In this document: positions 46,650 to 54,805 of the stretch, in pieces
Layout: each line of letters starts with the position of its first letter
How positions within the stretch are numbered: the stretch's first letter is position 1
DNA from: Xanthostigma xanthostigma
Lineage: Eukaryota > Arthropoda > Insecta > Raphidioptera > Raphidiidae
Length of the DNA stretch: 64,000 nt
Direction: 5' to 3'
NCBI GenBank assembly: GCA_963575645.1
Contig: OY754472.1
Span: 5,394,001-5,458,000 of the forward strand
The notes under the pieces: model-generated
What the model was told of the DNA's origin: nothing
Databases searched by the model: none
What the model saw: the letters and a program-made list of their open reading frames with translations, nothing else
Position numbers and translations under genes: made by a program

Positions 46650-49600
46650 ATGTCAGTAAAAATCTATTTGGCTGGTCAACTTCGTGGTCACAATGGATGG
46701 GTTACTCAAATTGGAGTCATTCCAAATAGTTCAGATTTATTAATTTCTTCTTCTCGAGGTAATAAATATTTTATAATAGTATCTACATTTTTTAATTATT
46801 AAAATCACTGGTAAACCTTGATACTCTCTACTATCACTACGTCTAAACTACGTAAGATTATTATTTGCTAAAATTGAATATTTTTACGTAGGTATTATTG
46901 TTAAAAAAAGTTAAATAATTTTAACGGTGAACTGTTGACATTTTATTTAATAAAATGTACAATTTTAAAATATTTTTTCTAAACCATTTGTGAAAATAAT
47001 TATGATTACATAATTGATTGATTTTTTAGATAACTAATAATTTTCAGCTTTGCACATGAAGTTTTGACTTATTAACATAAATTAATTAATTGTAATGTTG
47101 ATTATAGATAACGAAAACATGTTTACCTTAATTCGACTAACAGAACCATTATCAGAAATTCTTCCGCTCTGTAAGACCCGAGGAACTTTTGGTAATGCAC
47201 CTTTTGTTGAAGCAGCACTCATGAATGTAAAATGTTTATAGATCGAAGTCTTTTGCTTTGGCGTATAAACAAAAATGAAGATGTATACGGAACGCCTTCC
47301 GTTAAGTTGACTGGTCACAATCACTTCGTTAGTGATATGGTTTTATCAAGCGATGGCAGCTATGCAATATCAGGATCTTGGGATAAAACTCTGCGTCTTT
47401 GGGATCTCTATACAGGCAAAACTATAAGACGTTTTGTTGATCATACAAAGGCAAGCATTTCATAATAATTAAAATTATCTAGACAAACTAAGGGAGCAAG
47501 GCACACATGCTACTTTTTGTATCGATGCTGCATCATGATTTATCGATTAATCAGCTACTTAGAATATCTCGTTTGATCGTGCATCAACAAACCGCAATTT
47601 CGCTCGATCAAACGATGAATAACGATCAATGCATTGTACCTATTTTTTTGTGGTTTCAAGAAATTGCGCAAAATCGTAATTGAAAATGTAGCATTTGTAA
47701 TGTAAAGATATTTCAAGTAATAATTATCACTATATTTGTATAATTCTGAAGTTGAAACTTTCAGTAACCCTTAAAACTTTAAAGTGTTATATTATCATGA
47801 CAGCTATCATTTTATATCAACTTAGTACAACATCTTAATCAAATCACTTACATATTAAAACTAGTTAATAGTATATTTTTACCGTATACATGTTCAAAAT
47901 CGGTCATTTACTAATTCGTATTGTATTTATTTTTTAAGAAATCACCAAAAAATGACAGATATTATTCCTTTTTGAATTTAACACTACTTTCTTATGTTTT
48001 ATGGTAACCAGCCAACTAATGTCTTAATAATTAAATCAGCTTATGATATTATGTGAACATCAAAATGTCTAAATTTTAGAATAGAATTTGATAACTAATA
48101 TTCAATGCATACAGTGATCATTAATAACCACAATTAGATGACAATAACTTGGCTTTTAAGAATTTGACATAATATTCTCTTACATAAAAAAACCAATTAT
48201 AATAATTTACCAATCGGTCTTTACATGACGTTTCCATAGTAACGCCATTGTACTTAAAAGCTTTAGTTTTTAGCTTGGCTGCAACTGGAACATCGTGTCG
48301 CTAGAAGTTTTGACAAGTGTTTAACTGATCCAAATTCTGAAAGCTGTGCGGACCAATTTGCAAAGTTGCTGTAATAATATGCTATTTTTTGGTAACATAT
48401 TATTGGATGGACAACTACGATTTTGGAGAATTTTTGCACCACCATCGACACCATCCCATTATCGTTTGTTTTTTTTTTAGAAAACTCCCCCCTTTCTCCC
48501 TCAAATTTTCACTATGCAAAAAAAACGCCATCGCATCGACACCACCCCGTTATTGTTTTTTTTAGAAATCGCCGGTGTCCATTAGTGATCTTTGTTGAAT
48601 ATGCTGTTTTAAAGTTACCAGTGTACAACACATAAGGCATCAATGAAATAAGGTTTCTTAGTGCCTATTTGTCGACTTTTTCCACGCCAAAATTTGTATC
48701 AATGTGATTTCAGGATGTCATGTCTGTTGCGTTTTCATCCGATAATCGGCTAATTGTGTCAGGATCACGTGATAAGACCATTAAACTCTGGAATACTCTA
48801 GGAAATTGCAAATTCACAATTAAAGATAATTGTCATGATGGTTGGGTGTCGTGTACTCGATTTTCACCGATTCCTGAACCTTCACGCTTAGTTTCATGTG
48901 GTTGGGATAAGAAAATTAAGGTTGTTAAATACAAAGCGAGCTAAAAGATTAATAATTACAATCAGTAATCCGTTATTGAACTAGTATTTCAAGGGAAATT
49001 CCATTGAACTTTTAGGTTTGGAATTTAAAAAAATGTAAAGAAGAAGTTGAACATTTTGGCCACACCGGCTATTTAAATACAGTGGCCTTATCACCAGATG
49101 GTACATTGCTTGCCAGTGGAGGCAAAGATTCTGTTGCGATGATATGGGATATGCAATTGAACAATTTTTCCTCTAGTTTGGAGACTAAAGGAATTATCAA
49201 TGCAATTTGTTTTTCTCCAACCAGATACTGGCTCTCTATAGCTGTCGATTCAAATATTAAAATTTGGGTATGTTTTTTCATTTAGTTAACTAGCTATAGT
49301 TGTTTGTAGACATTAATTTAACTTGAATGGAATATCAGTGCGTACCAGAGCGTATTTTCACTGGGCGAAACATCGTCCAGAAAACGGTGCCCCTAGATGG
49401 CTCCCTAGCAGAATCACTGGGCGGCATAACTACTACTCACTAGGCGTCACAAACTCATCATTGGGTGGCCTTAGTGTCGCCTAGCACTGGTCCTTACTGT
49501 TATAAGATCAAGATATGACTTGCCATTTTATCTTTTTTTAAGCTTGGTTTTGTCTTAATTTGTCTTATATACTTATAGGATTTGGAAAGCAAACAATATA

Positions 49601-49761
49601 TTACCGATTTAATGCTAGAACAAGTTGGTTATTCAAAAATATTGCCGGAGTGTATATCTTTATGTTGGTCAACTGATGGACAGACACTCTTTGCTGGTTA
49701 CACAGATAATGTTATTCGAGTTTGGGAAGTACAAGGAACGTATAATAGTAGTTATTTTTAA
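46650..49761 (+). CDS. RACK1-like WD40 paralogue (diverged tandem copy)
   Basis: Five exons at 46650-46758, 47242-47450, 48714-48920, 49016-49267 and 49579-49761 join to 319 residues with seven WD40 blades. Exon sizes 1-4 (109, 209, 207, 252) are identical to the neighbouring RACK1 gene, so it arose by tandem duplication with introns. It keeps [55 protein letters not shown] and [15 protein letters not shown]. It differs by ISSSRDRSLLLW in place of the RDKT ribosome-contact motif, by losing the KAEPPQC segment in blade 7, and by a new tail, GTYNSSYF. Codons are AT-rich, unlike the neighbour. The second intron starts GC (AAG/GCAAGC). An upstream in-frame ATG at 46605 would add 15 residues, but it may lie in a leader intron. 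The open frame and valid splice sites argue that it is functional. Confidence 0.88.
47451..48713. other. RACK1-like intron 2
   Basis: GC-AG intron of 1263 bp. No transposon ends with clear duplications were found. It contains an ATCGATTAATC-rich patch near 47520-47640. Confidence 0.5.
49343..49495. mobile_element. Possible small hAT-like MITE
   Basis: GTACCAGAGCG on the left and CGCCTAGCACTGGTC on the right are weakly inverted, with ACTGGGCGnn and TAGGCG repeats between. Lies in intron 4 of the RACK1-like gene. Boundaries are uncertain. Confidence 0.35.
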
Positions 49762-50399
49762 TACGAATTAATTACATGGTAGTTTTTTTCTAGTTATGTG
49801 CTTATTAGTTTTATATTATTCTTAAATTTTACTACTGTTACTAAGTACTATTCTGTATCTATAAATGTCAATTTTTTAAAATGTTTTATAATACACTGTG
49901 ATAATAATTTTATTTGTACTGAACAGTTACGATTTAATAAAACAATATTTTTAAATTACTGAATTATCTAACACAGTTTTCCCAATTCTACTCTAGTTTT
50001 AATTAAACTTATTTACCTAGTTGAAATAATAATCTCTGATGACCTCAGCTAACTGTCTAATACTAATCAGAGAACATACAATACTAATCCATACTAATCA
50101 TTCATTTACTGATCTCCAGAGACAATACAATCTCTTTTTCGTCTTTTTCCTACAAAATAAAGATATTTAACAGTAAAATTGCAAATTACCCATCCTTTAA
50201 TTTTGGAAACACTCTAACCTTTTTTATTCCCAGTAGATACAATTCATTGACTGTAAGTTTGCGCATGCGCATGGTAGAACAAGCGCGAGCGCCATAGATT
50301 CTCTTCTCTCATTTCAATTATTGTTACAGTGCGTGCAGAAGCGAATATCGCTGTTGTTTAATCTATAAAAATAATTTATAGAAAAAAATCAAACCGATC
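49762..50399. promoter_or_regulatory. Region between the two RACK1 genes, with RACK1 promoter elements
   Basis: Within the 638 bp that separate the two genes, a perfect NRF-1/Ewg-type palindrome TGCGCATGCGCA lies at about 50260-50271. A pyrimidine run CTCTTCTCTC at about 50301-50311 could be a 5' terminal oligopyrimidine start, as expected of ribosomal-protein-like RACK1 mRNAs. The RACK1-like copy has no comparable tract. Start-site use is inferred. Confidence 0.5.
50260..50271. promoter_or_regulatory. NRF-1/Ewg-type site upstream of RACK1
   Basis: Perfect palindrome TGCGCATGCGCA about 130 bp upstream of the RACK1 ATG, matching the NRF-1 consensus used in many housekeeping promoters, bound by Ewg in flies. 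Confidence 0.55.
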
Positions 50400-53300
50400 A
50401 TGACTGAAACATTACAGCTTAGAGGAACTCTTCGTGGTCACAATGGTTGGGTTACCCAAATCGCCACAAATCCAAAATACCCCGACAAAATTTTGTCTGC
50501 TTCCCGAGGTAAGTCGCATATAAATATTTTCCAGTTTTATCTTAAGTAATTGTAAGCATCTGTTTTTGAGAATTGATGTTAACTGAGTTGAAAAATGTAT
50601 TGGTCCTAATTGTAGTATGATTTTTGTGGTATCAAATTATATGCCATATGCCGTACCATTTTAGTGCACACGTGGACTGAAATACGTTTTCGGCCGATAA
50701 ATAAATTCTCTGAAAACGACTTATTAATTCACAGACAAAACATTAATCGTGTGGAAATTGACACGTGACGAAACCAACTATGGTGTACCCCAGAAACGCT
50801 TGTACGGACATTCCCATTTCATTTCTGACGTTGTTCTGTCAAGTGACGGCAATTATGCACTGTCTGGATCGTGGGACAAAACTCTACGCTTGTGGGACTT
50901 AGCAGCTGGACGCACTACTCGTCGTTTCGAAGATCATACCAAGGTTCGATAAGTATTTCATTGGACATGATATTCCTCTTTCAGGATGAAGATTGTCAAC
51001 ACAGTGAGGTTGATATGAGTAGCTGCGCACGTTTAGCTCGGTAACTATTTGTAGCTACTTTCAGATATTTGTTGAAAACTATGTTTACGCGACTTTCAAA
51101 TATGGGGCAATTTTTGGGTAACTGATTTTTGTCACATTTTTTAAATTACTCGCGGGAAAAATGGGATATTCTTACTCGCTTGTATACTCATGGTTTTCGA
51201 AACAATTATTGGAAATATAAGTTTTTAATGATTTTTCGGGACCACTGATGTTGGTACACACGTTTAGGATAGGACTGCCATAAATGTCATGACGCCAACC
51301 GGGATATATCGATGTAGCGTTGTTACCAACATCACAAAACGGTAAAGTTCAACATGAAAGAGGCGCCCTATAACTAATCTAGGCTATGTTCCCAATTATA
51401 ACCCAGTATACCGGCCAGTGCTAATGACGTCCATAAATGTACTGCCATATTGTACTGGTGAAACAGATGCGACGTAGCATAAATATTTAACCAGACGTGT
51501 GTTCATCAGTGGATTTTTTTAATTTTGTTATTTGCAATAATGTCTGATCAACAAAATAAACAATTACTTTTGGTGGATGGGGGAAATAATACATCAACGC
51601 GCTGGCCAGTATAATTCGGAACGAATCAACAGTATGGCGTCTATTCATGACGCCACTAGCATTGACCAGGTATATTTCGGAACACGCCCGTAATATTTCG
51701 TCTTATTTAGTAACTAAACACAATAATTAAAAATCATGACAACTGGGCCTTAAAGTATGATTTTCTCTGTTGACCTTAGATGTTGAGCGTCTATTAATCT
51801 ACAATTCAAAATGACCTTTTTGATTAGCTATAGGAATATGTAATCGCAATATCGATATCATTATTTTGATAACCAAATTTTTTTATTCGGGTAACTTGAC
51901 ACCTGATTTGCCGACTGGGACATATGGCAGCCCTATAGTTAAGGAGTACTTACATATAAGTCTTAAAATACAAAATATCTAATTAAACCATTCATTTTAA
52001 AATCATAGTTTTTTTCAGATACATTTTTGTTAATTTGAATAATGCATGACAGCTTTACTTTCGACGGCAATATTTCTTTTATCGTTTAGAAATCTCGATG
52101 GAAACATTAATTTGAGACTAATTTGTCGCGTCTTTTTAAATTTGGCAGCACTTGCAATATTTTACGTTTTTTTTTTTTAAGGTAGTTTGGGAGCCGCAAT
52201 CCTAACTCAAATAAATGACTTTTTTTTGTTCCTCAAATAATTACCCAAATCATGCTATAATAATTAATAGAAATTCACATAAAAATGTATTTGATTTAAT
52301 TTAATGCGAATTACAGTTAAATAATTATAGTAATGTAATTAATAAAATATTAATTGACACTAGTCACTGTCACTACAACAACAGAGATAGAGGCCACTTG
52401 TCAGTATAAAAAAATTAATAAAATCAAAAGTACGTGGTAAATTATTCTGAAATTTTTGCAGTGTGTATTTCAGACATCGTTCTATCCATTAAAAAGTTTT
52501 TTTTTGTGGGGTCAAGTTTGTCAATTTTTTACAGACCCTCAATTTCCGGAGTTATTGAACAAGGACACTCATAAAGGCTCTTGTATTTTTGCATAACTTT
52601 AATTAATTATATCTCTTAAACGGTGTGGTAAACAAATCTGATTCTTTTTCTGTAGGTGTCTTTAATTATAATCTTTTGAATAAATATAAAAACAAGTAGG
52701 GTCAAATTTAAGTCATTTGGCTACCAAACTACCTTAAATACGTTTTGTGACTGAAAATTTTACTCAATTTATTATTTATTTATTTTTTTCGTTTTACTAA
52801 CGGGTTTATATTTGATATAGGACGTTCTGAGCGTAGCATTCTCAGTCGACAACCGTCAAATTGTGTCTGGATCCCGAGACAAAACCATCAAATTGTGGAA
52901 CACTCTGGCTGAGTGCAAATACACTATTCAAGATGATGGTCACAGTGATTGGGTTTCGTGTGTCCGTTTCTCGCCAAACCATAGCAACCCGATAATCGTA
53001 TCGGCTGGCTGGGATAGAATGGTCAAGGTAATTTCTATTTTACTATTTTTATATCTTTTTAAAACAACTGGTATGATGAACTTACGACCTAATGATTGAG
53101 CAATGATTTATGGTTAAATGCTGCGGATATGGAACTGATAACCAGTCAATTTGCGATTTTTTTTTTTAATAAAAAATGTATGTTAAAATTAGTACTGTTG
53201 GGATTTTACTTCGGTCTTGCGCCATCTACTCAGCATTTCAGTGAACTCTCTTATACGAAGCGTCTTCATAGTAAAGCATTGCACGCTATATTTTTGTAAA

Positions 53301-54805
53301 TATTTATAGTTTACAATAATGGAAGTGACGCGTCATTGAAAAATCGAAGAAGAAGCATGATATGTGCTGTGCAATACCTAATTGTCTTAGTGGATCAAGT
53401 GTAAATGTTATCAAATTTATAAATTGAAAAGTGACAGCTGTTAGCTGATCATGCACTTTTGATATTATGCGGGTTTTCTTCCAAATTTGACGTTTGCATG
53501 CAGAAATCAACAAATTTAACCTTATCACTACAGCTTACAATGTGATCAGTACTCGCGATTTTTTTTCCTTTGATATAATTACGTTTCAAAGGATTAGTAT
53601 CACTCCAACAACAAATTTCTTCCTTGGAAAAGATATTTTAAATAAAACATTGAAACCTTGTATATGTTACGGTTAATACAAGAAAGTAGTTACTTCACGA
53701 ATTAATTGGCTAATTACCCGAATTAACCAATCCTTGACGTTGGTTAATTCGGGTATTAGCCGGTTAATTCGCGAATAAACTACTTTCTTGTATTAACCGT
53801 AACATATATACTGTCAACGCAAGCGCTTCACGTAGGACGACCATATTAAATATTTTTAAATGGGCTCCGCTTACAGGTAAAATCTCAATGGGACCAAACT
53901 ATCAAAATCGCAGGATTGTGGGCAAAAATATTTGATTCATTTAATGTACGTTTCATCTATAGATTTAGACTTGTTCAAGAAAATTAAATAAAAATAAATA
54001 CAATTATTGTTATTTAATTTTCTGTATGTACTTGAAAAAGTCTAAATCTATATAATTAAATCTAATATTTTTGTCCACAACCCTGCGATTTTTCTTGCAT
54101 TTATTTTCACGATAGACCCGATATCTAATACTTAAATCTAGTGTTTAAATTTTATGATTCGTTCTAAAGTATATTTGTGTATTTGATTTAAAGGTATGGA
54201 ACTTGGCCAACTGCCGTCTGAAGATCAACCATATGGGTCACACTGGTTACTTGAACACCGTCACGGTATCTCCAGACGGTTCGCTGTGCGCCAGCGGCGG
54301 TAAGGACTGCAAGGCAATGCTTTGGGACTTGAATGATGGCAAACACTTGCACACCCTTGACCACAATGACATCATTACGGCCCTCTGCTTCTCGCCCAAC
54401 AGATATTGGCTTTGTGCTGCGTTTGGACCATCGATTAAAATATGGGTCAGTAAATGTTGTCATTTGTTTTTCTTTGTTTTTAATAATTACGAATGATGAT
54501 TATTCTTTACCTCATGATATGTTAATGAATGGGTATATTGCGGATATGGGACTGATGTACTGTTGATCAATTTTTGTTTTCATTTGTTTTAACGAGAGCT
54601 GTTTATTAATTGTGGTGATTATTTTCAGGACTTGGAAAGCAAGGAAATGGTTGAAGAATTAAGACCGGAAGTAGTATCTGCTCCATCCAAAGCTGAACCA
54701 CCACAATGCTTGTCTTTGGCCTGGTCTACAGACGGGCAGACATTGTTCGCTGGGTATTCTGATAATACGATACGCGTATGGCAAGTTTCTGTATCTGCGC
54801 GCTAA
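50400..54805 (+). CDS. Rack1: RACK1, ribosome-bound WD40 scaffold
   Basis: RACK1 is a seven-bladed WD40 protein on the 40S subunit head that links ribosomes to PKC and other signalling partners. Five exons, 50400-50508, 50735-50943, 52821-53027, 54194-54445 and 54629-54805, give 317 residues, the standard length. The N-terminus [20 protein letters not shown] and the blades [62 protein letters not shown] and [12 protein letters not shown], with [13 protein letters not shown] in blade 7, match insect and vertebrate RACK1 almost throughout. The ribosome-contact RDKT after blade 1 is intact. Introns 3 and 4 each contain a C/D-box snoRNA-like sequence. Vertebrate RACK1 genes are also snoRNA hosts (SNORD95, SNORD96). 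Confidence 0.98.
51383..51690. mobile_element. PIF/Harbinger-like non-autonomous element
   Basis: Inverted ends: tATGTTCCCAATTATAACCC with CCGGCCAGTGCTAATG on the left, and CTAGCATTGACCAGG with ATATTTCGGAACACG on the right. GGGCxxGTTCCGAA-type ends are typical of insect Harbinger families. A short frame starting [17 protein letters not shown] lies inside and quickly stops. In RACK1 intron 2. Confidence 0.65.
52181..52733. mobile_element. TTAA-flanked MITE, 553 bp
   Basis: Ends GGTAGTTTGGGAGCC and GGCTACCAAACTACC are directly flanked by TTAA on both sides, the target of piggyBac-type elements. No transposase. In RACK1 intron 2. Confidence 0.85.
53067..53146 (+). ncRNA. C/D-box snoRNA in RACK1 intron 3
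   Basis: A terminal stem ACTGGT (53067-53072) pairs exactly with ACCAGT (53141-53146). Next to it are C box ATGATGA (53073-53079) and D box CTGA (53135-53138). A D'-like TTGA at 53096 and C'-like ATGATTT at 53103 lie between. The bases before the D box, GCTGCGGATATGGAA, form an antisense element. The fifth base upstream of D is a T, so the predicted methylated target base is the A in UUCCAUAUCCGC. From memory this resembles a conserved 28S rRNA stretch, but I could not align it. About 80 nt, a typical size, and hosted in an intron of a translation gene as usual. Confidence 0.78.
53661..53808. mobile_element. Palindromic MITE, 148 bp
   Basis: Arms of about 65 bp: TATATGTTACGGTTAATACA and AGAAAGTAGTT on the left, mirrored as TGTATTAACCGTAACATATA-type sequence on the right, with a CGGGTxTTAGCC/GGTTAATTCGGG interior. 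In RACK1 intron 3. Confidence 0.85.
53904..54092. mobile_element. MITE, 189 bp
   Basis: Ends AAAATCGCAGGATTGTGGGC and CCACAACCCTGCGATTTTT, plus an inner inverted pair around TAGATTTAGACTTGTTCAAG / CTTGAAAAAGTCTAAATCTA. In RACK1 intron 3, downstream of the snoRNA. Confidence 0.8.
54488..54562 (+). ncRNA. C/D-box snoRNA in RACK1 intron 4 (paralogue of the intron 3 one)
   Basis: C box ATGATGA (54493-54499) and D box CTGA (54552-54555), with GCGGATATGGGA directly before D. This is the same antisense element as in the intron 3 snoRNA with one base changed, and it has the same predicted methylation position. The terminal stem is weak (TAC with GTA). The exon-proximal position about 70 bases before the acceptor fits intronic snoRNAs. 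Confidence 0.68.

Follow-up and report, generated by a model that had tools for sequence, protein, structure and literature searches.

The 64,000-nucleotide stretch of Xanthostigma xanthostigma DNA analyzed here (the window) contains the gene RACK1, two introns of which each carry a candidate box C/D small nucleolar RNA (snoRNA), designated sno3 (coding intron 3) and sno4 (coding intron 4). The best match of the RACK1 product in the Protein Data Bank (PDB) was 4v6w_Ag (E 3.3e-195), and the identical sequence is also found in 6xu6, described as a Drosophila ribosome (PMC13228274). As judged from its sequence, the gene is complete, intact and insect-like.

In both elements an exact C box (RUGAUGA) lies close to the 5′ end and an exact D box (CUGA) close to the 3′ end, with 62 nt (sno3) or 59 nt (sno4) between the start of the C box and that of the D box, and the sequence GCGGATATGG(A/G)A adjoins the D box on its upstream side. 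An earlier note on this DNA had described two C/D-box elements with ATGATGA, CTGA and one common guide in consecutive RACK1 introns, and our analysis confirmed this arrangement in introns 3 and 4.

The rRNA genes were located by pattern search, and the search for targets took in the species' own 28S and 5.8S rRNA. The 28S sequence was obtained from an rDNA stretch with a full-length Rfam match to the large-subunit (LSU) rRNA (L023, 5359-8712) and the 5.8S sequence from another stretch, L021. The sno3 guide forms its Watson-Crick pairs with 28S rRNA at positions 3-16 upstream of the D box, and the sno4 guide at positions 2-13, followed by a G-U pair at position 14. These 14 and 12 pairs exceed the 10 bases that the earlier note had set as the limit for a guide-to-rRNA alignment. 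In both elements the fifth nucleotide upstream of the D box is a T paired with A2519 of 28S rRNA, which is the first A of CCCAUAUCCGC; the sequence CCATATCCGC occurs only once in the 28S rRNA. By the fifth-nucleotide rule, the same adenosine, A2519, is the predicted methylation target of sno3 and sno4, in agreement with the single A that had been proposed for both copies. We saw no sign of a second (D′) guide, because in neither copy did the segment between the C box and the guide match 28S or 5.8S rRNA by pure Watson-Crick pairing over 8 bases or more. Allowing G-U pairs added nothing beyond 9-10-mers that contain one or two of them (for sno4, among the matches listed).

Table. Coordinates of RACK1, the two snoRNA candidates and a related pair elsewhere in the genome. 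Positions are those of the window unless a contig (C7) is given.
Feature	Position	Strand	Basis or detail
RACK1, five coding exons, 317 aa product	50400..54805	+	GT-AG gene model, PDB match
RACK1 exons	50400-50508, 50735-50943, 52821-53027, 54194-54445, 54629-54805	+	gene model, GT-AG introns
RACK1 coding intron 3, 1166 nt	53028..54193	+	gene model
RACK1 coding intron 4, 183 nt	54446..54628	+	gene model
sno3, predicted box C/D snoRNA, SNORD99 type, 80 nt, RACK1 coding intron 3	53067..53146	+	boxes, guide, Rfam RF00608 27.6 bits (cut-off 60)
sno3 predicted terminal stem	53067..53072 (ACTGGT, 5′ arm) with 53141-53146 (ACCAGT)	+	6 bp, exact
sno3 C box ATGATGA	53073..53079	+	window C/D scan
sno3 guide TGCTGCGGATATGG	53119..53132	+	14 Watson-Crick pairs with 28S CCATATCCGCAGCA
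sno3 D box CTGA	53135..53138	+	window C/D scan
sno4, predicted box C/D snoRNA, SNORD99 type, ~74 nt (ends uncertain), RACK1 coding intron 4	54486..54559	+	boxes, guide, RF00608 18.7 bits
sno4 C box ATGATGA	54493..54499	+	window C/D scan
sno4 guide TGCGGATATGGG	54539..54550	+	12 Watson-Crick pairs, plus G-U at 54538, with 28S CCCATATCCGCA
sno4 D box CTGA	54552..54555	+	window C/D scan
SNORD95-type twin pair in RpL8 introns	C7:6122362-6122429 and C7:6122751-6122812 (within L062, C7:6118001-6127000)	minus	guide ACTAGAGGCTCTTT-CTGA, target 28S A2547

The rDNA itself yielded two further observations. In the stretches L021 and L022 (C11) the eukaryotic 28S match ended at model position 1888 or 2354, whereas that of L023 was full length, which looks as if inserted elements interrupted some of the rDNA copies. 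A search of the assembly for an exact 26-base core motif of 18S was negative, although it contains 28S and 5.8S sequences, and four 18S motifs were absent from the rDNA stretches L021-L024; the 18S motif may be missing from the assembly or different in sequence.

Human SNORD99 is assigned to 28S Am2787 (old Am2774) and is located in SNHG12 (PMC8393311, PMC9941101). Both sno3 and sno4 carry the guide for this nucleotide, with the same predicted A. A permissive Rfam scan of 1.7 kb aligned the SNORD99 model, RF00608, to sno3 (E 0.0057) and to sno4 (E 1.7) with the scores given in the table, and in a search of the whole genome (a 623-Mb assembly of 28 contigs) sno3 was the first of the four RF00608 matches reported (60 of 117,408 candidates scored). 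Outside the guide, the variable stretch of sno3 weakly resembles the SNORD99 consensus (p 0.011 in global and 0.021 in local alignment). On such sequence comparisons, common descent of sno3 and sno4 with SNORD99 is plausible.

Given the boxes, the guide, the pairing with the insect's own 28S rRNA, the position in an intact host gene and the sub-threshold Rfam similarity, we consider it very likely that sno3 and sno4 are intron-encoded box C/D snoRNAs and functional counterparts of vertebrate SNORD99, predicted to guide methylation of the same A2519. For transcription, processing, methylation and the history of the duplication we propose the following course. RACK1 would be spliced and the debranched introns trimmed back to the core of the small nucleolar ribonucleoprotein (snoRNP), and each RNA would then lead fibrillarin to place a 2′-O-methyl group on 28S A2519, the equivalent of human Am2787. 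The twins probably arose when the copy in one RACK1 intron was duplicated into the next; divergence would have followed, with only the boxes and the guide holding the copies together.

A number of observations weigh against this interpretation. At its gathering thresholds Rfam reported nothing in the window. Genome-wide, the E-value of sno3 was only 0.49, sno4 was not among the four matches reported, and no match, sno3 and sno4 included, reached the RF00608 gathering score of 60 bits. At E up to 10, moreover, 10 of the 14 prokaryote genomes used as controls gave sub-cut-off matches to the model as well. The genome-wide rank of sno3 taken alone is therefore weak evidence, and because both scores fall under 60 bits we name the elements SNORD99-type and do not file them as members of RF00608. 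For the variable stretch of sno4 no similarity to the SNORD99 consensus emerged (p 0.40 in global and 0.83 in local alignment), and sno4 also weakly matches SNORD50 (15.8 bits, E 9.3). It has hardly any terminal stem, as only UAC/GUA, about 3 bp, could be recognized by eye. The D box of sno3 is separated from the 3′ splice site by 1055 nt, which is unusual. Neither element folded better than its shuffled counterparts (z 0.45 to 1.27, four pieces); poor folding scores may be expectable for C/D RNAs, yet they lend no support. Finally, a 2026 preprint describes human-specific 28S 2′-O-methylation (Nm) signals, relative to Drosophila S2 cells, in the region 2401-2804, within which this site falls (PMC13228274). 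According to that description, a mark equivalent to A2519 may not be universal in insects, although the absence of a signal in Drosophila is not proof, because the method is stated to have recovered 30 of the 42 annotated 28S sites (PMC13228274).

One could envision that the likeness to SNORD99 reflects convergence imposed by the conserved 28S target and not descent, so that sno3 and sno4 would be guides but not SNORD99 orthologues. A guide must equal the complement of its target site, and much of the Rfam SNORD99 score must come from the guide, because the target dictates it. The scores under the cut-off, the lack of likeness outside the guide in sno4 and the description of this 28S region in Drosophila as devoid of the human Nm signals (PMC13228274) are all in keeping with convergence, whereas the weak likeness of the sno3 variable stretch to the SNORD99 consensus argues for descent. 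We regard convergence as a serious possibility, to which we give somewhat less than even weight.

There is also the question of whether both copies work. The two arms of the 6-bp terminal stem that the earlier note had recognized in the intron 3 copy indeed match exactly; the stem formed when an 80-nt piece was folded but was absent from the best fold of a 96-nt piece. The variable stretches of sno3 and sno4 are only weakly alike (p 0.019 in global and 0.009 in local alignment, from 5000 shuffles), and the earlier description of the two copies as otherwise diverged is thus fair. The C box of sno4 lies 47 nt from the 5′ splice site, and its D box ends 73 nt short of the 3′ end of intron 4, which is compatible with the place described as customary for C/D snoRNAs, roughly 50 nt ahead of the branch point (PMC8162545). 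The C box of sno3 is similarly placed, 45 nt from the 5′ splice site. Intron 3 was probably lengthened after the snoRNA had settled there, because a multi-copy hairpin repeat, resembling a miniature inverted-repeat transposable element (MITE), lies inside it at about 53659-53811; it has at least 39 other genomic copies that are 91-98% identical, a lower bound since 40 candidates were scored. By analogy with mammalian snoRNAs, sno3 might make up for its position in the intron by its firmer terminal stem. A single guide suffices for one site, and one of the two copies might be a decaying duplicate. Sno4, with no clear terminal stem and a low Rfam score, could be that copy, as could sno3, whose intron contains a repeat element and whose distance to the 3′ splice site is large. 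Against this, both copies have kept the C and D boxes exactly, together with 12 or more Watson-Crick guide pairs, despite divergence elsewhere, and we think it unlikely that only one of them functions.

Intron 3 also contains a second long imperfect inverted repeat (53904-54092), for which one partial relative was reported (C8:44832023-44832139). The weak Rfam matches to miRNA families in this intron were attributed to the hairpin repeats, and we rejected them as miRNAs.

To what extent such motifs occur by chance can be read from scans of the window and of the genome. The scan of both strands of the window accepted a C box with up to 1 mismatch if a CTGA followed 55-120 nt downstream of the C-box start and if 10 or more Watson-Crick pairs could form with the species' own 28S or 5.8S rRNA. 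Four matches were obtained, and only sno3 and sno4 have 12 pairs or more. One hundred dinucleotide shuffles gave 0.70 matches per shuffle and, in total, four matches of at least 12 pairs, with no shuffle holding two. Genome-wide, the bare 12-mer GCGGATATGGNA was found at 47 places, as compared with 57 for its reversed control; the guide word is thus not rare in itself, but its combination with the boxes is. The pattern TGATGA-N25-55-GCGGATATGG had four matches (reversed control, 0), two of which are sno3 and sno4; on inspection by eye, one of the others (L009) looks like coding sequence and the other (L010) like a copy of the dispersed repeat GCGGATATGGATCTGA. An exact C box and D box with the guide cut to GCGGATAT occurred at four places (control, 0), and the full guide was present only in the RACK1 pair. 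GCGGATATGG-N0-3-CTGA was found at 112 places, two of them in RACK1 (reversed control, 3). Among the 100 matches listed, 82 read GCGGATATGGATCTGA, another 16 differ in the spacer and the remaining 2 are those of RACK1; the places outside RACK1 were judged by their letters and by the exact-C-box search, which could miss guides with a deviant C box. That C/D-like motifs arose by chance in AT-rich introns is highly improbable: the boxes are short, shuffles do yield matches of 10 or more pairs and the bare 12-mer is common, but here one rRNA site is matched by at least 12 pairs in each of two successive introns of the same gene, and none of the 100 shuffles held two matches of 12 or more pairs.

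The word GCGGATATGGATCTGA is itself of note as an apparent dispersed repeat that mimics the SNORD99 guide and D box and can yield false snoRNA calls in this genome.

Upstream of RACK1, at about 47243-49763 of the window, is a diverged tandem paralogue whose PDB matches are RACK1 and which is identical to RACK1 at 170 of 274 aligned residues. Its introns include ones at the positions of RACK1 introns 3 and 4, and no TGATGA lies inside them. Five introns were examined for relics of the snoRNAs, namely introns 1 and 2 of RACK1 and the paralogue equivalents of introns 2, 3 and 4; none contained TGATGA. Two of the ten relic alignments reached p 0.017 and 0.023, which is unconvincing given ten tests and no boxes.

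The earlier note had further suggested that, as vertebrate RACK1 also hosts snoRNAs, the host relation may be ancient. In chicken, GNB2L1 (RACK1) intron 6 is reported to host U95/SNORD95, the guide for 28S-A-2576, and HBII-420 (SNORD99), the guide for 28S-A-2548, is placed in another locus, CK986810 intron 4 (PMC2653536). The SNORD99 and SNORD95 target adenosines are 28 nt apart, and the downstream counterpart of A2519 in this insect is A2547. The RACK1 pair, which targets A2519, does not carry the guide for this downstream adenosine. A guide pattern for A2547 with exact TGATGA and CTGA was found at two places genome-wide (reversed control, 0), one in each of two consecutive introns of the same gene. 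When joined, the exons of this gene match the 60S ribosomal protein L8 (RpL8; best 11he_L8, E 4.9e-186; 4v6w_CA, E 5.9e-151). The design is the same as that of the RACK1 pair, with one guide common to both elements, each forming 13 Watson-Crick pairs with 28S rRNA plus a G-U pair at position 1. Rfam gave no SNORD95 match to this pair at E up to 2, and we call it SNORD95-like by its guide only.

An ancient association of the RACK1 host with its passenger is thus unsupported, in view of U95 in chicken GNB2L1, SNORD99 in human SNHG12 and the SNORD95-type guide in RpL8 here. By sequence, RACK1 is a host in both lineages, but the passenger is different. This fits the movement of snoRNAs among broadly expressed hosts with the modification kept, described as "constrained drift" (PMC3511168), for which the RACK1 and RpL8 pairs provide a concrete case. 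We tentatively propose, with slightly less confidence than an even chance would imply, that since the insect-vertebrate split the guides for two 28S marks 28 nt apart came into different hosts, RACK1 housing the SNORD95 guide in chicken and the SNORD99 guide in this insect, RpL8 housing the SNORD95 guide in the insect and SNHG12 housing SNORD99 in human. In that case this insect would also keep an Am2787-equivalent mark apparently lost in Drosophila, and SNORD99 would therefore predate the protostome-deuterostome split.

In the titles and abstracts covered by our literature searches we found no snoRNA reported in insect RACK1 and no insect SNORD99, and the main text of a study predicting mosquito C/D snoRNAs names neither SNORD99 nor RACK1 (PMC4300560). 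The SNORD99-type guide, reported for human and chicken, would now be extended to an insect. The testable prediction is that 28S A2519 is methylated in this insect, even though the human Nm signals of that region are described as lacking in Drosophila S2 cells.

Compared with known systems, sno3 and sno4 resemble SNORD99 (HBII-420; RF00608) in the guide UGCGGAUAUGG just upstream of the D box, in the predicted 28S A, in the C box and in size, and sno3 also in its predicted terminal stem. They differ from it in host, which is RACK1 here as opposed to SNHG12 in human and the expressed sequence tag (EST) locus CK986810 (intron 4) in chicken, in being present as two copies and in scoring under the Rfam cut-off. 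With vertebrate SNORD95 (U95) in RACK1/GNB2L1 the pair shares the host gene and a target merely 28 nt away in 28S rRNA, but its guide and its adenosine are different, and the SNORD95 guide resides here in RpL8 introns. In layout the pair resembles the isoform snoRNAs reported in chicken, U38 in introns 4 and 5 of RPS8 and U45 in introns 1 and 2 of RABGGTB (PMC2653536), which differ in guide and host from the RACK1 pair but, like it, are one-guide copies in neighbouring introns of a single host.

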